Positions 3,020 through 31,982 of a DNA stretch of 37,284 nt are shown piece after piece (the first letter of the stretch is position 1; each line of letters opens with the position of its first letter). This DNA comes from an uncultured Olsenella sp. (GTDB taxonomy: Bacteria > Actinomycetota > Coriobacteriia > Coriobacteriales > Atopobiaceae): assembly GCA_900314575.1 (NCBI GenBank), contig OMVS01000011.1:1-37284 (forward strand). Direction: 5' to 3'. The translations under genes and the position numbers were made by a program. The notes beneath the pieces are model-generated. The model was not told the DNA's origin, made no database searches, and worked only from the letters and a program-made list of their open reading frames with translations.

Positions 3020-3254
3020 GACCTGCCTCCGTCCCCGTCGTGGCCCCGCTCGCCTCGCGCCCGGCTCGCGACTGCCGGCCGGGAGCCCCGGCCAGCACGC
3101 AGATTCGTTTGCTATACCCCCGTTCGGGAGGCCTCAGTCACCCGGCGTCCCGGACGAGCGTCGATTCCCCCGTGGCCGACGCCTGGCGCAGCGACGGGCG
3201 CCCGGCTCAGCGACGGGTGCCAGCACTAGCCCGGGGCGCCCCCGGCGGATCCCG

Positions 3255-5637: not shown

Positions 5638-7143
5638 ATGCCTTGCACCACCATCCTGGTAGGTAAGGACGCGAGCTACGACGGCTCGACGATCATCGCG
5701 CGCAACGAGGACAGCGGCTCCCTGGGGTTTTGCCCCAAGCGGATGGAGGTCGTCCAGCCGGCCGACCAGCCCAGGCACTACCGCAGCGTCCTGAGCCACC
5801 TCGAGGTCGACCTCCCCGACGACCCCCTGCGCTACACGTCCGTCCCCAACGCGCTCGGCGACGAGGGCGTCTGGGCCGAGGCGGGCGTGAACTCCCTCAA
5901 CGTGGCGATGAGCGCGACCGAGACCCTCACCACCAACGAGCGAGTGCTGGGCGCCGACCCCTTCGTGGAGCTGCGCCCCGCCCACGGCCAGCCCGGCGAC
6001 GAGGACTTCGAGCCGGAGGTCCCCGGCGGCATAGGCGAGGAGGACATGGTCACCCTGGTCCTCCCCTACATCACGAGCGCGCGCGAGGGCGTCGAGCGCC
6101 TCGGCGGGCTGCTCGAGCGGTACGGCACGTACGAGATGAACGGCATCGCCTTCTCGGACGTCGACGAGGTCTGGTGGCTCGAGACCGTCGGCGGGCACCA
6201 CTGGATCGCCCGCAGGGTCCCCGACGACGCCTACGTCACCATGCCCAACCAGCTCGGCATCGACGCCTTCGACCTCGACGACGCCCTGGGCCCGCAGGAG
6301 AGCTTCATGTGCTCCCCCGACCTGCGCGAGTTCGTGGAGGAGAACCACCTCGACCTCTCGCTCGACGGCCGGCTCAACCCGCGCGACGCCTTCGGTAGCC
6401 ACAGCGACTCCGACCACGTCTACAACACCCCGCGCTCCTGGGCCATCCAGCGCTTCCTCAACCCGCACAGCAACATCTGGGACGGCCCGGACGCCGACTT
6501 CCGCCCCGAGGACGACGACATCCCCTGGTGCCGCGTCCCCGAGCGCAAGGTGACGATCGAGGACGTCAAGTACGCCCTCTCCCTGCACTACCAGGGCACG
6601 CCCTTCGACCCCTACGCGCACTACGGCAGCCCGCTGGAGCGTGGCAAGTACCGCCCCATCGGCATCAACCGCAACGGCCAGCTCTCCGTCATCCAGCTGA
6701 GGCCCTACGAGCCCGAGGCCTGCCGCGCCATCCAGTGGCTCGCCTACGGCAGCAACGTCTTCAACGCCCTCGTCGCCCTCTACGCCAACGTCGACGCCGC
6801 ACCCGACTACCTCGCCAACACGACGGGCCGCGTCACGAGCGAGAGCTTCTACTGGGAGAACCGCATCATCGCCGCGCTGGCGGACGCGCACTTCAACGAG
6901 TGCAACGCCGAGGTCGAGCGCTACCAGCAGCGCGTACCGGCGAGCTGCTACAACGTGCTCGCCCGCGTCGACCGCGAGGTCGCCGAGGCGGGGCTCGGCT
7001 ACGAGGAGGCGGCCGACGCGTTGGGCCGCGCCAACGAGGAGATCTGCGCGATGCTGCGGAAGGAGACGGACGACCTTCTCGCCAAGACGCTCGACACCGC
7101 GAGCCTCAAGATGAGGAACGCCTTCGCCAAGGAGGACGCGTAG
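5638..7143 (+). CDS. C69 family dipeptidase (PepD-like, N-terminal nucleophile)
   Basis: The 501-aa protein starts MPCTTILVGKDASYDGSTIIARNEDSG, which matches the C69 (formerly U34) peptidase N-terminus: Cys3 is the expected nucleophile, followed by the conserved DGSTIIARNED motif. Further family features are WAEAGVNSLNVAMSATETLTTNERVLGADP, a VWWLETVGGHHWIARRVPDDAY segment and a C-terminal YENV-like SFYWENRIIAALAD. No signal peptide is visible, so it is probably cytoplasmic and acts on dipeptides in peptide fermentation. AGAGGG precedes the ATG with suitable spacing. It is divergent from yitT and followed after 88 bases by a small zinc-ribbon gene on the same strand. Confidence 0.9.
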   Translation: MPCTTILVGKDASYDGSTIIARNEDSGSLGFCPKRMEVVQPADQPRHYRSVLSHLEVDLPDDPLRYTSVPNALGDEGVWAEAGVNSLNVAMSATETLTTNERVLGADPFVELRPAHGQPGDEDFEPEVPGGIGEEDMVTLVLPYITSAREGVERLGGLLERYGTYEMNGIAFSDVDEVWWLETVGGHHWIARRVPDDAYVTMPNQLGIDAFDLDDALGPQESFMCSPDLREFVEENHLDLSLDGRLNPRDAFGSHSDSDHVYNTPRSWAIQRFLNPHSNIWDGPDADFRPEDDDIPWCRVPERKVTIEDVKYALSLHYQGTPFDPYAHYGSPLERGKYRPIGINRNGQLSVIQLRPYEPEACRAIQWLAYGSNVFNALVALYANVDAAPDYLANTTGRVTSESFYWENRIIAALADAHFNECNAEVERYQQRVPASCYNVLARVDREVAEAGLGYEEAADALGRANEEICAMLRKETDDLLAKTLDTASLKMRNAFAKEDA

Positions 7144-17089: not shown

Positions 17090-17944
17090 TCACTGCTGGA
17101 CGCCGCCCGCCTTGAAGTACGCCAGGACGATGGAGCCGGGGCCCGCGTACGTGCCGATCGTGGCTCCGAGGGTGCAGATGGGCAGCCCGTCCACCATCCC
17201 CTCCCAGAGGCCGCGGGAGTCCTCGACGTACTTCTGCAGGAGGCTGTCCGAGAGGCCGGAGTAGCCGAGCGAGAAGGGCATCGCGTAGTCGATGCCCCCG
17301 TCGCGCCTGACCGTCTCGTTCAGGATGTTGCGGCCGTTCCTTGAGCCGCGCGCCTTCCCCAGCAGCGCTATCTCGCCGTCCTCGACCGTGACGACCGGCT
17401 TGACGGAGAGGACTGCGCCGAGCGCGGCCGCCGCCGCCGGGATCCTGCCGCCCCGCCTGAGGTACTCGAGGGTGTCGAGCAGGCCGATGACGCGGACCCG
17501 CCCCCTCGCGGCACGCAACCCCTCCGCGATGCTCGCGGCTCCCTCGCCCCTCTCGGCCATGGTCAGGCCGAGGTACACGAGGATCTGCTCGCCCAGGGAG
17601 GCGCTGAGCGAGTCCACGACCTGGACGTCGTCCCTGCCCTCCGCGGCGACGCAGGCGCTCTGGTAGGTCCCCGAGAGCTTGGAGGAGAGCGTGACCACCA
17701 CAACCTCCTCGCCGGCCGCCCGAGCGGCGTCGTACGCCTCGGCGAACGCGCCGGGCGCAGGGGCGCCCGTGCTCGGCAGCTTGTCGGACTCCACGAGGAG
17801 CTCGTAGAACTTCTCATGCGAGAGGTCCACGCCGTCCTGGTAAAGCCTGTCGCCGAACATGACCGTCAGCGGCAGGACCGTGAGGCCCGGATGGTCGAAG
17901 CCGACGATGTCCGAACCAGAGTCGGTGATGATGCGCGTAGGCAT
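17090..17944 (-). CDS. DegV family fatty-acid-binding protein (FakB-like), copy 1
   Basis: The 284-aa protein starts MPTRIITDSGSDIVGFDHPGLTVLPLTVMFGDRLYQDGVDLSHEKFYELL and contains the fatty-acid-contact motif LPSTGAPAPGAFAEAY, then VVTLSSKLSGTYQSACVAA, LEYLRRGGRIPAAAAALGAVLSVKPVVTVEDGEI and the C-terminal GATIGTYAGPGSIVLAYF. DegV/FakB proteins bind a fatty acid and present it to the kinase FakA, which is not in the window. GGGGGAG is just upstream of the ATG. It lies 168 bases downstream of a MarR regulator on the same strand. A second, diverged copy is at 28878-29822. Confidence 0.93.
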   Translation of the reverse strand: MPTRIITDSGSDIVGFDHPGLTVLPLTVMFGDRLYQDGVDLSHEKFYELLVESDKLPSTGAPAPGAFAEAYDAARAAGEEVVVVTLSSKLSGTYQSACVAAEGRDDVQVVDSLSASLGEQILVYLGLTMAERGEGAASIAEGLRAARGRVRVIGLLDTLEYLRRGGRIPAAAAALGAVLSVKPVVTVEDGEIALLGKARGSRNGRNILNETVRRDGGIDYAMPFSLGYSGLSDSLLQKYVEDSRGLWEGMVDGLPICTLGATIGTYAGPGSIVLAYFKAGGVQQ

Positions 17945-28200: not shown

Positions 28201-28331
28201 GATACGGACTCCTAACATACTGACTGCATGATTACAAGCAAATCTCGGCGGCAGGCAATCTGCAACCAAGCAAGCATTTTGCACGTGTTGAACATGAGGC
28301 GCAATACCTGTTCACAAAACTGTCGACTTTC

Positions 28332-28394
28332 TTGCTCGACATGTCGAGTTGGTTGCTCGACATGTCGAGTTCGTTGTTCGACATGTCGAGTTCG
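28332..28394. repeat. Three 21-bp tandem repeats each carrying a 14-bp palindrome
   Basis: CTCGACATGTCGAG occurs at 28335-28348 and 28356-28369, and TTCGACATGTCGAG at 28377-28390. Starts are exactly 21 bases apart, two turns of B-DNA, so bound proteins would lie on one face. A degenerate half-copy (TGTCGACTT) lies one period upstream at 28321. The array is 132 bases upstream of the 79-aa gene. Confidence 0.93.
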
Positions 28395-28551: not shown

Positions 28552-28610
28552 GTTGAGAAATCGTTCGTGTTGGGCCCAGCTAGGCCGGGGCACGCGAACG
28601 AAGGCTCACC
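28552..28610 (+). repeat. 59-bp element, copy 1
   Basis: The ends are GTTGAGAAATCGTTCG and CGAACGAAGGCTCACC, imperfect inverted repeats around a diverged GC-rich centre. Its reverse complement matches the element at 29906-29964 in length and at both ends, so the two copies face opposite ways on either side of degV2. Confidence 0.72.
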
Positions 28611-28630
28611 ATTCGTTGGGTATGCACCGC

Positions 28631-28726
28631 ACGGGGCAGCAGCCGCACGGGGCAGCAGCCGCATGGGGCAGCTGCCGCACGAGGCAGCAGTCGCACGGGG
28701 CAGCAGCCGCACGAGGCAGCATCGTC
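28631..28726. repeat. Six 16-bp tandem repeats
   Basis: The unit ACGGGGCAGCAGCCGC recurs six times with one or two changes per copy, the last degenerate. The period is not a multiple of three, so it is not a coding repeat. It lies 150 bases upstream of degV2. No spacers of unique sequence separate the units. Confidence 0.9.
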
Positions 28727-28877
28727 TACCGCCATGCGCCGTACCTGAGTGGAGGGCCGCTCGGCGAGATGCGGTATCTTAGGTCACGTTCGATGAGTCT
28801 GCGAGACTGTACTTCTCGTAAGGGGATTCGGCCCATGCAAGCCGCGCCGCAGGACGCGCGGCGGCTAAGGAGACCAA

Positions 28878-29822
28878 ATGGCGACCAAGTGCAACATCAT
28901 GACCGATTCGTGCTGCGACTTCTCTGCCGAGGAGGTCGAGGAGGCCGGCATCGCCTGGATTCCCTACACCTACACGGAAGCGGGCAAGGAAGACGGCCTC
29001 TCCGGCTACGACGACCTCTTCCAGTCGCGCAGCGCGCACGAGTTCTACGCGGCCATCAAGGGTGGCGCCTGCCCAATGACGTCGCAGCCGTCACAGATTG
29101 CTTACGAGCAGGCCTTCGAGCGAGTGCTCGCGACGGGCGTGCCGACCGTTCACTTCTGCCTGTCCAGCGGGATCTCCGGTTCGTACAACGGTGCCGTCAC
29201 CGCGCTCGATCGCGTCCGCGAGAAGCACGGGGGAACGCTGCCCACGCCGATCTACGTCGTCAACTGCCTCATCGGCTCGACCACCCAGAACCTCTTCATC
29301 CATCGTGCCGTCCAGAAGCGCGACGAGGGCCTCACGGCCGAGGAACTGGTCGCGTGGGCCGAGGACGCGCGCTTCCACGTGCACACCATCTTCATGGTGG
29401 ACAATCTGGACGCCCTGCACCGTGGAGGCCGCATCCCCAAGTCGGTCGCGGTCGTCGGCGGCATGCTGGACGTGAAGCCCCTCCTTACCTTCAGACTCGA
29501 CGGCTCGCTCGCCGTCATGGGGGTGGCGCGCGGACGCCGCAAGGCGATGCGGAAGATGCGCGACTTCTACGAGGCGCTCCATTTGCCCACCTGCGAGGAG
29601 AACGCCGTCGCCATCGGCGATGCGGACTGTGCGGGTGACGGCGACTCCCTGAGGGCCTCCCTCTTGGCGGGAGATGGCGACCTCAAGGTGTACCGCTCCA
29701 CCATCGGACCGACGATCGGCTGCCACGTCGGTCCCGACATGCTGTCATGCTGCTTCTGGGGCGAGGACCGGCGCACGCCTGGGTTCGACGACTCCAAGAG
29801 CAAGGGCAAGGCCTCGAAGTAG
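28878..29822 (+). CDS. DegV family fatty-acid-binding protein (FakB-like), copy 2
   Basis: The 314-aa protein has the DegV layout: CNIMTDSCCDFSAEEVEEAGIAWIPYTYTEAGKEDGLSGYDDLF, the ligand motif CPMTSQPSQIAYEQAFERVL, VHFCLSSGISGSYNGAV, DNLDALHRGGRIPKSVAVVGGMLDVKPLLTFRLDGSLAVMG, and a C-terminal STIGPTIGCHVGPDMLSCCFWG. It is clearly diverged from the copy at 17090-17944, so the two may prefer different fatty acids, as FakB1 and FakB2 do. AAGGAG lies six bases before the ATG. Unlike copy 1, no regulator is adjacent; it sits between two inverted 59-bp elements. Confidence 0.92.
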   Translation: MATKCNIMTDSCCDFSAEEVEEAGIAWIPYTYTEAGKEDGLSGYDDLFQSRSAHEFYAAIKGGACPMTSQPSQIAYEQAFERVLATGVPTVHFCLSSGISGSYNGAVTALDRVREKHGGTLPTPIYVVNCLIGSTTQNLFIHRAVQKRDEGLTAEELVAWAEDARFHVHTIFMVDNLDALHRGGRIPKSVAVVGGMLDVKPLLTFRLDGSLAVMGVARGRRKAMRKMRDFYEALHLPTCEENAVAIGDADCAGDGDSLRASLLAGDGDLKVYRSTIGPTIGCHVGPDMLSCCFWGEDRRTPGFDDSKSKGKASK

Positions 29823-29905
29823 CCGGCGGAAGCACTGCGGCCCTCGGCCAAGTACGCCGCTCGGATCACGTTCGGGACGCCACGTGAGGTGCCACGCGGC
29901 GGAAA

Positions 29906-29964
29906 GGTGAGGTTTCGTTCGCTCGTGCACGTACTTGTCGCCCGAAGGCGAACGAAAGCTCAAC
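29906..29964 (-). repeat. 59-bp element, copy 2, with 14-bp inverted arms
   Basis: GAGGTTTCGTTCGC (29909-29922) and GCGAACGAAAGCTC (29948-29961) are reverse complements with one mismatch. The element equals the reverse complement of copy 1 at 15 of the first 17 positions and 13 of the last 18. It is the main feature of the 307-bp spacer 29823-30129, which holds no visible gene and could also end degV2 transcription. Confidence 0.75.
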
Positions 29965-30129: not shown

Positions 30130-31239
30130 ATGTGTGGCCGGGATGTGCTGGAGATACGGCTTGACCAGGCGGTTGCGTGTGGAACTTGCCTGCGCGCGCA
30201 AAGTGACGCCGAGCGTCAGCGCCTGCGCCGCATGGTGAGGCGCGGCACCGTCACGTCGCCTGCTCGAGGGCTCTTTGTCCGGACCGAGGCGTGGACCGCA
30301 CTCAACCCGCGCGCACGCGCGCTCATGCTCATTCGCTCCATCGCGGCCCTGCATCCGGACTGGGTGTTCTGTGGCGTCAGCGCCGCAATCGTGCACGGGC
30401 TCGCCGTGTCCTTCCACTTGCTTGGGCAAGTGCACATAGCCGTGCCCCGTACACGCCACGGCAGGAGCACAAGGGTGGTCGTCCGGCACGCGATCGGAGA
30501 AGTTCCGACCGTACGAGTCGACGGCATGCTCGTGACCTCGCTTCCCCGCACCGTCGTCGACTGCTTGAGGCACCTGAGCTTCGCCGAGGGGCTCGTCATA
30601 GCAGACTCCGCGCTGCGTGCAAGCAGGATGTCTGCGGAGCCGTTCCGGGAGCTCGTCAGAAGCGCCGGCCGCGGACTGCGTGGGATTCGTCATGCCATCT
30701 CGACCATGTCTTGGGCCGACGCCAGGAGCGAGAGCGGGGGCGAGTCGCTCGCGAGGGCCGTCATGGCCGAGCTAGGATTCCGATTGCCTGAACTCCAGGT
30801 AAGCGTCATGAGCGCCTTGGGCGATGGTCACATCTACAGGCCCGACTTCACATGGAGACTCCCGACCGGCACCGTCTACGGCGAGTTCGACGGCAGGGCA
30901 AAGTATTCAGATCCTGCGATGACCCACGGTAGGTGTTCCGTCGACGTGCTGGCAGACGAACGCATTCGAGAGTCTCGGCTCGCGGCGAGCGGGCGCGTGC
31001 TGCGCCTCTCCTACGCAGACCTTCGCCCGGACCGACTGGCGAGGGTGCTGGACGCCTTCGACATACCGCATGACCGCCCGATGACCTCGCTCGACCTTCG
31101 CCCAGCATCGCTTCGCGATCACCGCGGTCCAAGCTGCCGCACGCTACGGGACGCCAACGCCCGCGCGAGCAAGCCGAGGCGGCGCAGTACCAGCCCTGCT
31201 GCAGCGTCACGACAGGAGCGCCCGTCGCCATCGCGATGA
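30130..31239 (+). CDS. AbiEi-like/DUF559-type protein (winged-helix N-terminus plus nuclease-like C-terminus)
   Basis: The 369-aa protein belongs to a type common in Actinobacteria. The N-terminal 60 residues look like the AbiEi antitoxin winged helix (LRRMVRRGTVTSPARGLFVRTEAW), the middle has HPDWVFCGVSAAIVHGLAV and VTSLPRTVVDCLRHLSFAEGLVIADSAL, and the C-terminal domain has YRPDFTWRLPTGTVYGEFDGRAKY, which resembles the D...ExDGxxKY core of Vsr/DUF559-like nucleases. The last 50 residues are Arg/Ser-rich and probably disordered. No AbiEii toxin partner is adjacent, so it may act alone; a defence role is inference. GGGAG lies seven bases before ATG 30130. Confidence 0.75.
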   Translation: MCGRDVLEIRLDQAVACGTCLRAQSDAERQRLRRMVRRGTVTSPARGLFVRTEAWTALNPRARALMLIRSIAALHPDWVFCGVSAAIVHGLAVSFHLLGQVHIAVPRTRHGRSTRVVVRHAIGEVPTVRVDGMLVTSLPRTVVDCLRHLSFAEGLVIADSALRASRMSAEPFRELVRSAGRGLRGIRHAISTMSWADARSESGGESLARAVMAELGFRLPELQVSVMSALGDGHIYRPDFTWRLPTGTVYGEFDGRAKYSDPAMTHGRCSVDVLADERIRESRLAASGRVLRLSYADLRPDRLARVLDAFDIPHDRPMTSLDLRPASLRDHRGPSCRTLRDANARASKPRRRSTSPAAASRQERPSPSR

Positions 31240-31982
31240 CACGCCGCCGACAGACGAGCGCGGTCCATGAAGCCCGGCTAGCCGATGTGAATCTGAGCTA
31301 GGCTTGCCTGGGCGACCACCGCCCCGACTCCACGGGCTGGCACCACTGCGGCGCGGCCATCACGGTGGCGCCAGCGCCACTGCGTGCGTCCATCACGGCG
31401 ATGCGGACATCACAACAACATAACAAGTGCATGCGACATCTGCGGGCATTCATCTTCGGCTTCGAGCAGCAGTAACAGGACGACTCCGCTCGCAAGACAT
31501 CAAGATAGTCTGGCCTCAAGAGGGTCGGTTGCCAACTGCAGCCGGTTGCCAACAGCAGTCTGCGTCGCATCGGGCGGCCCACATACCGCAACACTCGTCT
31601 ATGGAGAGATATCGTTCGTCTTGGCCTGATCTGAGCGGTTCGAAGCAATCGGAATCTCACCGTATCGCCGGATCGCTACCCGGTTGGCCTCCGAAGACGT
31701 GCCACGAGCCTCGGTCCGAGAGGCCCCGCTTCATGACGCCCGGCGGATCGTAGGCACCTTGCGGGCAATGCTAGAATCACCCGATGGAGGAGGGGCCTTC
31801 CGGGGGGCGTCCCAGCTGCGACCGGGCGTCCCAGCTGCGACCGGACGTCGGACGTCCCGGCGAAGTGCCAATACCCGCCAGGAAGTCCCGACACCACCCG
31901 GCGGCCGTGCTCGAAGCCCCTGCCGCCGAGCCCGCAGCGCCCGCCCGCCTCGTCGCAAGACCGACCACACGGAGAACAGCCC
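31240..31982. other. 743-bp intergenic region without a credible gene
   Basis: Composition is lower in GC from about 31400 to 31640. I see a hairpin GTGGCGC/GCGCCAC (31365-31380), a direct repeat of CGGTTGCCAAC (31526 and 31543), an extended -10 box TGCTAGAAT (31769-31777) that may serve the HAD gene, and two tandem 19-bp copies (31807-31825, 31826-31844). Open frames here have no domain, poor start signals and look random. Confidence 0.6.

Follow-up and report, generated by a model that had tools for sequence, protein, structure and literature searches.

Matching Palindrome Pairs around AbiEi-like/PD-(D/E)XK Protein Genes of Actinomycetota Suggest a Previously Undescribed Repeat-Plus-Protein System

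Introduction

REP/RAYT units, or "REPtrons", consist of a gene with flanking palindromes. Copies of the palindromes are dispersed in the genomes that carry the gene, gene and repeats have diversified together, and the number of repeats rises with the gene (PMC2817692). AbiEi-type antitoxins, the mark of AbiE type IV toxin–antitoxin systems, bind 23-bp inverted repeats in their own promoter, with a gap of 3 bp for AbiEi and 13 bp for its homologue Rv2827c (PMC3985639, PMC7319586). In Actinomycetota, many genes have no annotation other than "AbiEi family antitoxin domain" or "DUF559".

Here, we analyzed a stretch of 37,284 nucleotides (the window) from an uncultured Olsenella sp. (assembly GCA_900314575.1, contig OMVS01000011.1; contig C85 of the 144 contigs of this 2.1-Mb genome). 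An earlier note had described two 59-bp elements around degV2 and had read them as REP/BIME-like or as sites of an invertible switch. We report matching palindrome pairs around a widespread gene family, which suggest a previously undescribed repeat-plus-protein system. In the open-access full text that we searched, no description of AbiEi/DUF559 proteins with paired palindromes was found.

The 59-bp Elements in the Window

The features of the window discussed here are the following:
28552..28610, minus strand: e1, a 59-bp palindromic element, an extra (solo) copy upstream of degV2; after reverse-complementing, 15 of 17 and 13 of 18 end positions are common with e2.
29906..29964, plus strand: e2, a 59-bp palindromic element, the upstream bracket of the nuclease gene; the outer arm is self-complementary at 15 of 18 positions.
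30130..31239, plus strand: gene for a 369-aa protein with an AbiEi-antitoxin-like part (aa ~26-180) and a PD-(D/E)XK/DUF559-like nuclease part (aa ~200-300), recognized from PADLOC AbiEi models, invariant residues and paralogues.
31603..31661, plus strand: e3, a partly degenerate 59-bp palindromic element, the downstream bracket of the nuclease gene; it has 2 mismatches to the spaced pattern, and its relative position is that of the downstream element on contig C96.

The positions, equal length and opposite orientation of e1 and e2, the agreement of their first 17 and last 18 positions and the mutually inverted arms inside each are exactly as the earlier note described; e3, a third copy in the window, had been overlooked. 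A 55-base spaced pattern of the arms, with at most 3 mismatches allowed, matched only e1, e2 and two places on contig C96 (5520-5574 and 7212-7266) in the own genome, and the reversed control gave 0 matches. A looser pattern gave five true copies (0, 0, 0, 0 and 2 mismatches; control 0), together with two 3-mismatch matches at the noise level of other genomes. The resemblance between e1 and e2 is not due to chance. The genome-wide count of copies that the earlier note had proposed, which here rests on pattern searches, thus came to five (e1, e2, e3 and the C96 pair), all exactly 59 bp long.

The five elements start with GTTGAG, GGTGAG or GGAGAG and end with CTCACC or CTCAAC. Their arms are paired in 81% of cells, the sequences being too few for covariation. 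Strong hairpins are predicted in both strands, and Rfam matched nothing in the window. The integron attC site, or "59-base element", has the consensus ends RYYYAAC...GTTRRRY; this candidate was rejected by eye, the ends GTTGAG...CTCAAC being the opposite of attC ends.

Other repeats lie near e1. Upstream of it (28321-28392) are three tandem 21-bp copies, each containing the perfect palindrome CTCGACATGTCGAG or a version close to it, and between e1 and degV2 (28611-28736) are six tandem 16-bp repeats resembling CCGCACGGGGCAGCAG.

The Gene between the Elements

The ORF between the two C96 elements (5903-6943) shows 68% protein identity to the window ORF between e2 and e3, and the elements are spaced, start to start, by 1692 bp (C96) and 1697 bp (e2 and e3). 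Given this paralogue and the same spacing, the repeated architecture is element, nuclease gene, element, that is, e2-e3 and not e1-e2 around degV2. Thus, e1 is an extra copy near the nuclease unit, and degV2 is a bystander that lies between e1 and e2 by position only.

We also examined degV2 in other genomes. None of 13 relatives is bracketed by a flanking repeat above the null or has an adjoining nuclease gene, and eight further degV2 loci (L002-L009) have neither the elements nor the nuclease gene. To judge from these arrangements, the 59-bp palindromes belong to the nuclease-like gene adjoining degV2, not to degV2 itself. The neighbors of the nuclease gene in the window encode DegV, a HAD-like protein and a DEDDh exonuclease-like protein; no AbiEii (DUF1814) toxin was found among them or among the neighbors in one named relative. 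A second, weaker DegV-like match lies at 17324-17821 on the minus strand.

The PADLOC AbiEi models match the window protein from aa 26 to 174-180 (best E = 2.5e-9), and they match most of its relatives too. In the C-terminal part (motif ...GGES...VDF...GE-x-DG..KY...ER.RES...), the residues E205, D239, E252, D254, K258 and R280 are invariant across 86 relatives, as in PD-(D/E)XK nucleases; a conserved nuclease core of this kind marks DUF559/PD-(D/E)XK proteins. No Pfam model matches the window protein itself, which falls below detection, while a relative from Tsukamurella, obtained with tblastn and aligning at 30% identity, is above the Pfam cut-off for DUF559 (PF04480) and weakly matches REase_MTES_1575 (PF18741). 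A PDB sequence search with the window protein gave no relative, and its single-sequence AlphaFold model was unusable (pLDDT 35). Besides the C96 paralogue, the own genome has one that is 39% identical, on contig C41. At this third paralogue (L026, ~1934-2914), an overlapping palindrome cluster of the CGCAAATCGCTTTT type lies at 3042-3157, downstream only.

Paired Palindromes across the Gene Family

The family profile matches 165 of 331 coriobacterial genomes, which often have 2-6 copies. For 85 distinct Coriobacteriia loci, we matched the two flanks of the gene, upstream against downstream, and took as threshold a score of 42, the 99th percentile of mismatched flank pairs. Flank pairs exceeded this null in 60 of the 85 loci (median score 92), and in 50 of these a clear palindrome lies on each side of the gene (median length 62 bp, arms 22). 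With equal flank sizes, the score was >42 in 58/85 nuclease loci and in 3/58 control genes, the latter three seemingly representing a single orthologous gene. Beyond Coriobacteriia, 14 of 17 loci of a phylum-wide sample were above the null. So were 23 of 27 loci in another set, which shares some loci with this sample and is mostly non-coriobacterial, chiefly from Actinomycetes.

No pair was detectable in 25 of the 85 Coriobacteriia loci. The window and C96 loci fail the plain alignment test because their centers have diverged, and the arm pattern is what identifies them; similar cases may be among the 25 negative loci. Another gene, comparable in size and position and likewise with similar sequence on both sides, was seen in Olsenella/Tractidigestivibacter (L003:8083-9864, L005:5567-7351 and L009:8078-9832; control-test scores 52-62).

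The pairs are direct in 45 of the 60 loci and inverted in 15. A median of 33 bp separates the stop codon from the downstream palindrome, the upstream one ends a median of ~230 bp before the start codon, and lengths across the family range from ~40 to 75 bp. Most of the paralogues that we examined in three near-complete genomes of a single genus each have a distinct repeat pair of their own. Public examples are WP_148332043.1 of Collinsella aerofaciens, and WP_074851054.1 and WP_170181047.1 of Tsukamurella tyrosinosolvens. By tblastn, viral contigs gave no relative; phages gave a single weak partial match. Judged by these comparisons, the AbiEi-like putative nuclease gene family occurs widely in Actinomycetota, and its members usually have near-identical, locus-specific palindromes of their own on both sides.

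Some loci are more elaborate. In L029, L111, L101, L042 and L044, several repeats are arrayed on each side (up to ~380 bp) in BIME-like clusters. In L150 (genome G295), the nuclease gene is seemingly broken (two tblastn pieces) and both flanking palindromes are intact.

Co-diversification of Repeats and Proteins

Repeat similarity between loci stays at the baseline below ~60% protein identity and rises above it; over the whole set, the Mantel test was only borderline (24 of 500 shuffles were as high). We then considered the arms of 25 distinct TGTCGCCCGAAA-type palindromes, which pair in 95.8% of cells. They contain 43 compensatory arm cells, where 12 were expected (0/500 shuffles); related sequences can inflate such counts, and the observed value is also far above the slid controls, which retain relatedness. 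The compensatory changes fall mainly in one 4-bp box, at positions 13-16 / 37-40 of the palindrome (CGTA, CGGT, GCCG, GCCT, AACA, AACT). In the coding sense, arm mismatches are equally often G-T (51) and A-C (53), so nothing points to selection on RNA. In these respects, the palindromes behave as recognized DNA would.

Dispersed Copies, Presence/Absence and Inversion

The pattern TGTCGCCCGAAANNNNCGGTTTTC was counted in whole genomes. It has 20, 28, 23 and 22 matches in G286, G053, G305 and G295, whose genes have that repeat type (control 0-1); genomes lacking the gene mostly have 0-5. Because a palindrome may be counted twice, these 20-28 matches mean roughly 10-17 places per genome. Repeats also occur without an intact gene, in G304 (16 matches, no gene match) and G276 (14 matches, a weak gene remnant). 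G278, G257 and G302 have 6-14 matches with genes present, and the one locus inspected in each of G278 and G257 has a palindrome of another type. The own genome has only its five copies, including the degenerate e3. These genomes are GC-rich and have many long spurious ORFs, which blur the line between genic and extragenic positions of solo palindromes.

Downstream of a glycosyltransferase-like gene lies an intergenic site that is found in three states. It holds the gene and two palindromes in G286, G305, G053 and G295, one palindrome and no gene in G278 and G276, and neither in G287, G275 and G277. The gene adjoining this site is 95% identical between G287 and G286. No target-site duplication or exact empty-site junction could be resolved there, the intergenic sequence being too diverged.

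Here and at a second orthologous site, species differ in which way the gene unit points relative to the host flanks, while the closest protein relatives include those at the same site. The simplest reading is that the unit was inverted in place, independent insertion being the alternative. Inversion of a bracketed segment, which the earlier note had envisaged, would occur between species, but the segment carries the nuclease gene and not degV2. The REP/BIME-like reading survives likewise in part: the palindromic repeats are tied to a specific protein gene and are dispersed in some relatives, but no RAYT-type transposase is involved, the bracketed gene being AbiEi/DUF559-like, and the Pfam/NCBIfam matches include no transposase family.

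Proposed Mechanism and Alternatives

Paired palindromes, gene-family specificity, co-diversification, compensatory arms, dispersed copies, presence/absence variation and both orientations are established from sequence. Our preferred explanation, which we hold to be probable but far from secure, is that the elements serve as cognate DNA repeats for the AbiEi-like/PD-(D/E)XK protein encoded between e2 and e3, which would bind and cut them and thereby spread, delete or flip them in a REPtron-like manner. Binding, cleavage and protein-driven mobility, as we infer them, would proceed as follows. AbiEi and Rv2827c bind inverted repeats with the gaps given above, and for the AbiEi-like N-terminal part the palindrome thus probably provides two inverted binding sites. 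In the Rv2827c geometry, 23 + 13 + 23 gives 59 bp, the length of the window elements; this match is suggestive only, family palindromes varying in length. The distribution of the palindromes suggests that the nuclease domain probably makes nicks or cuts in them or close by, and that repair using the repeats would spread, delete or flip the palindromes or the unit. As a result, the gene with two palindromes, single palindromes and empty sites would alternate. In this the unit would resemble a REP/RAYT REPtron that employs another enzyme.

A broader statement can be made only tentatively, and we lean slightly against committing to it: the units may form a phylum-wide REP-like class of Actinomycetota, a repeat-mobilizing system without an HUH or DDE transposase, in which a fused AbiEi-type DNA-binding/PD-(D/E)XK nuclease spreads itself along with its palindromes. 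If this is true, repeat-plus-enzyme REPtron units would have arisen more than once, with unrelated enzymes. For the many genes with only a domain annotation, cognate palindromes give a testable function. The matched protein/DNA-site pairs, including the variable 4-bp box, are material for studying the evolution of site specificity.

The main rival explanation is that the palindromes are operators only. The AbiEi-like domain would bind both copies, loop the DNA and repress its own gene; the unit would not be mobile, and the differences between species would reflect ordinary recombination. In its favor, AbiEi and Rv2827c autoregulate by binding inverted repeats of such size, the upstream element ends a median of ~230 bp before the start codon, and repeats and protein have diversified together. 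However, AbiE operators lie upstream only, whereas one copy here closely trails the stop codon, and looping leaves the dispersed solo copies, the variation between one, two and no palindromes and the invariant nuclease motif unexplained. We regard it as unlikely, though deserving serious attention.

It is more doubtful still that host palindromes or recombination hotspots passively gathered the nuclease gene, whose protein would not recognize them. Such gathering could account for the single palindromes without the gene at the same site and for the repeats kept in some genomes without the gene. However, the sequence of the pair is locus-specific and tracks the protein, several paralogues in one genome each have their own palindrome, and other genes are without such pairs.

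There is very little to recommend RNA hairpins, that is, transcription terminators or mRNA-stabilizing structures of degV2 or the nuclease gene. The hairpins predicted in both strands are strong, but e1-e3 have no T-tract (so the terminators of degV that the earlier note had weighed against its own proposal do not apply), the equal G-T and A-C mismatches give no sign of transcript selection, and terminators would not account for the upstream copy or the solo copies. Least credible is the switch of the earlier note, in which e1 and e2 would be recombination sites that invert the 1.3-kb degV2 segment: the two are oppositely oriented, and nuclease-gene units occur in both orientations in relatives, but no degV2 relative is bracketed, the C96 pair encloses a nuclease paralogue and not degV, and a simple scan found no promoter-like site.

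Comparison with Known Systems

Homing endonuclease genes share with the present unit a nuclease gene, here a putative one, and site-specific presence/absence. However, no target gene is split here, and occupied sites carry two palindromes.

With the DUF559/MTES_1575 restriction-endonuclease-like proteins (Vsr-type fold), the family shares an E..D..ExD-type motif, and the C-terminal part of the Tsukamurella relative matches PF04480 and PF18741. Those families are defined by the protein alone, and the papers that we found on them describe no paired palindromes.

AbiE systems (AbiEi/Rv2827c) have in common with the unit the AbiEi-like region and inverted repeats of matching geometry (23-3-23 or 23-13-23 bp), the upstream palindrome near the nuclease gene being a candidate site of this kind. 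Unlike in AbiE, the scanned neighbors include no AbiEii toxin match, a nuclease-like domain is fused to the AbiEi-like region, and the repeats are not confined to the promoter but lie on both sides of the gene and are dispersed.

The closest functional analogue is the REP/RAYT REPtron. Both have palindromes on both sides of the gene, co-diversification of gene and repeat and dispersed copies, which here are found in some carriers and follow gene presence with exceptions. However, RAYTs are HUH tyrosine transposases (IS200/IS605-related), whereas the protein here is AbiEi-like and PD-(D/E)XK/DUF559-like. There is no constant GTAG (or CGTC) foot motif; the own elements begin as given above, and the ends at other loci are varied. 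The flanking pair, inverted in REP/RAYT, is mostly direct here, the palindromes are longer (median 62 bp), and dispersed copies are far fewer (~10-17 places per genome, or almost none). Because it has another enzyme, other repeat ends and mostly direct pairs, the unit is an analogue of the REP/RAYT family and not a member of it.
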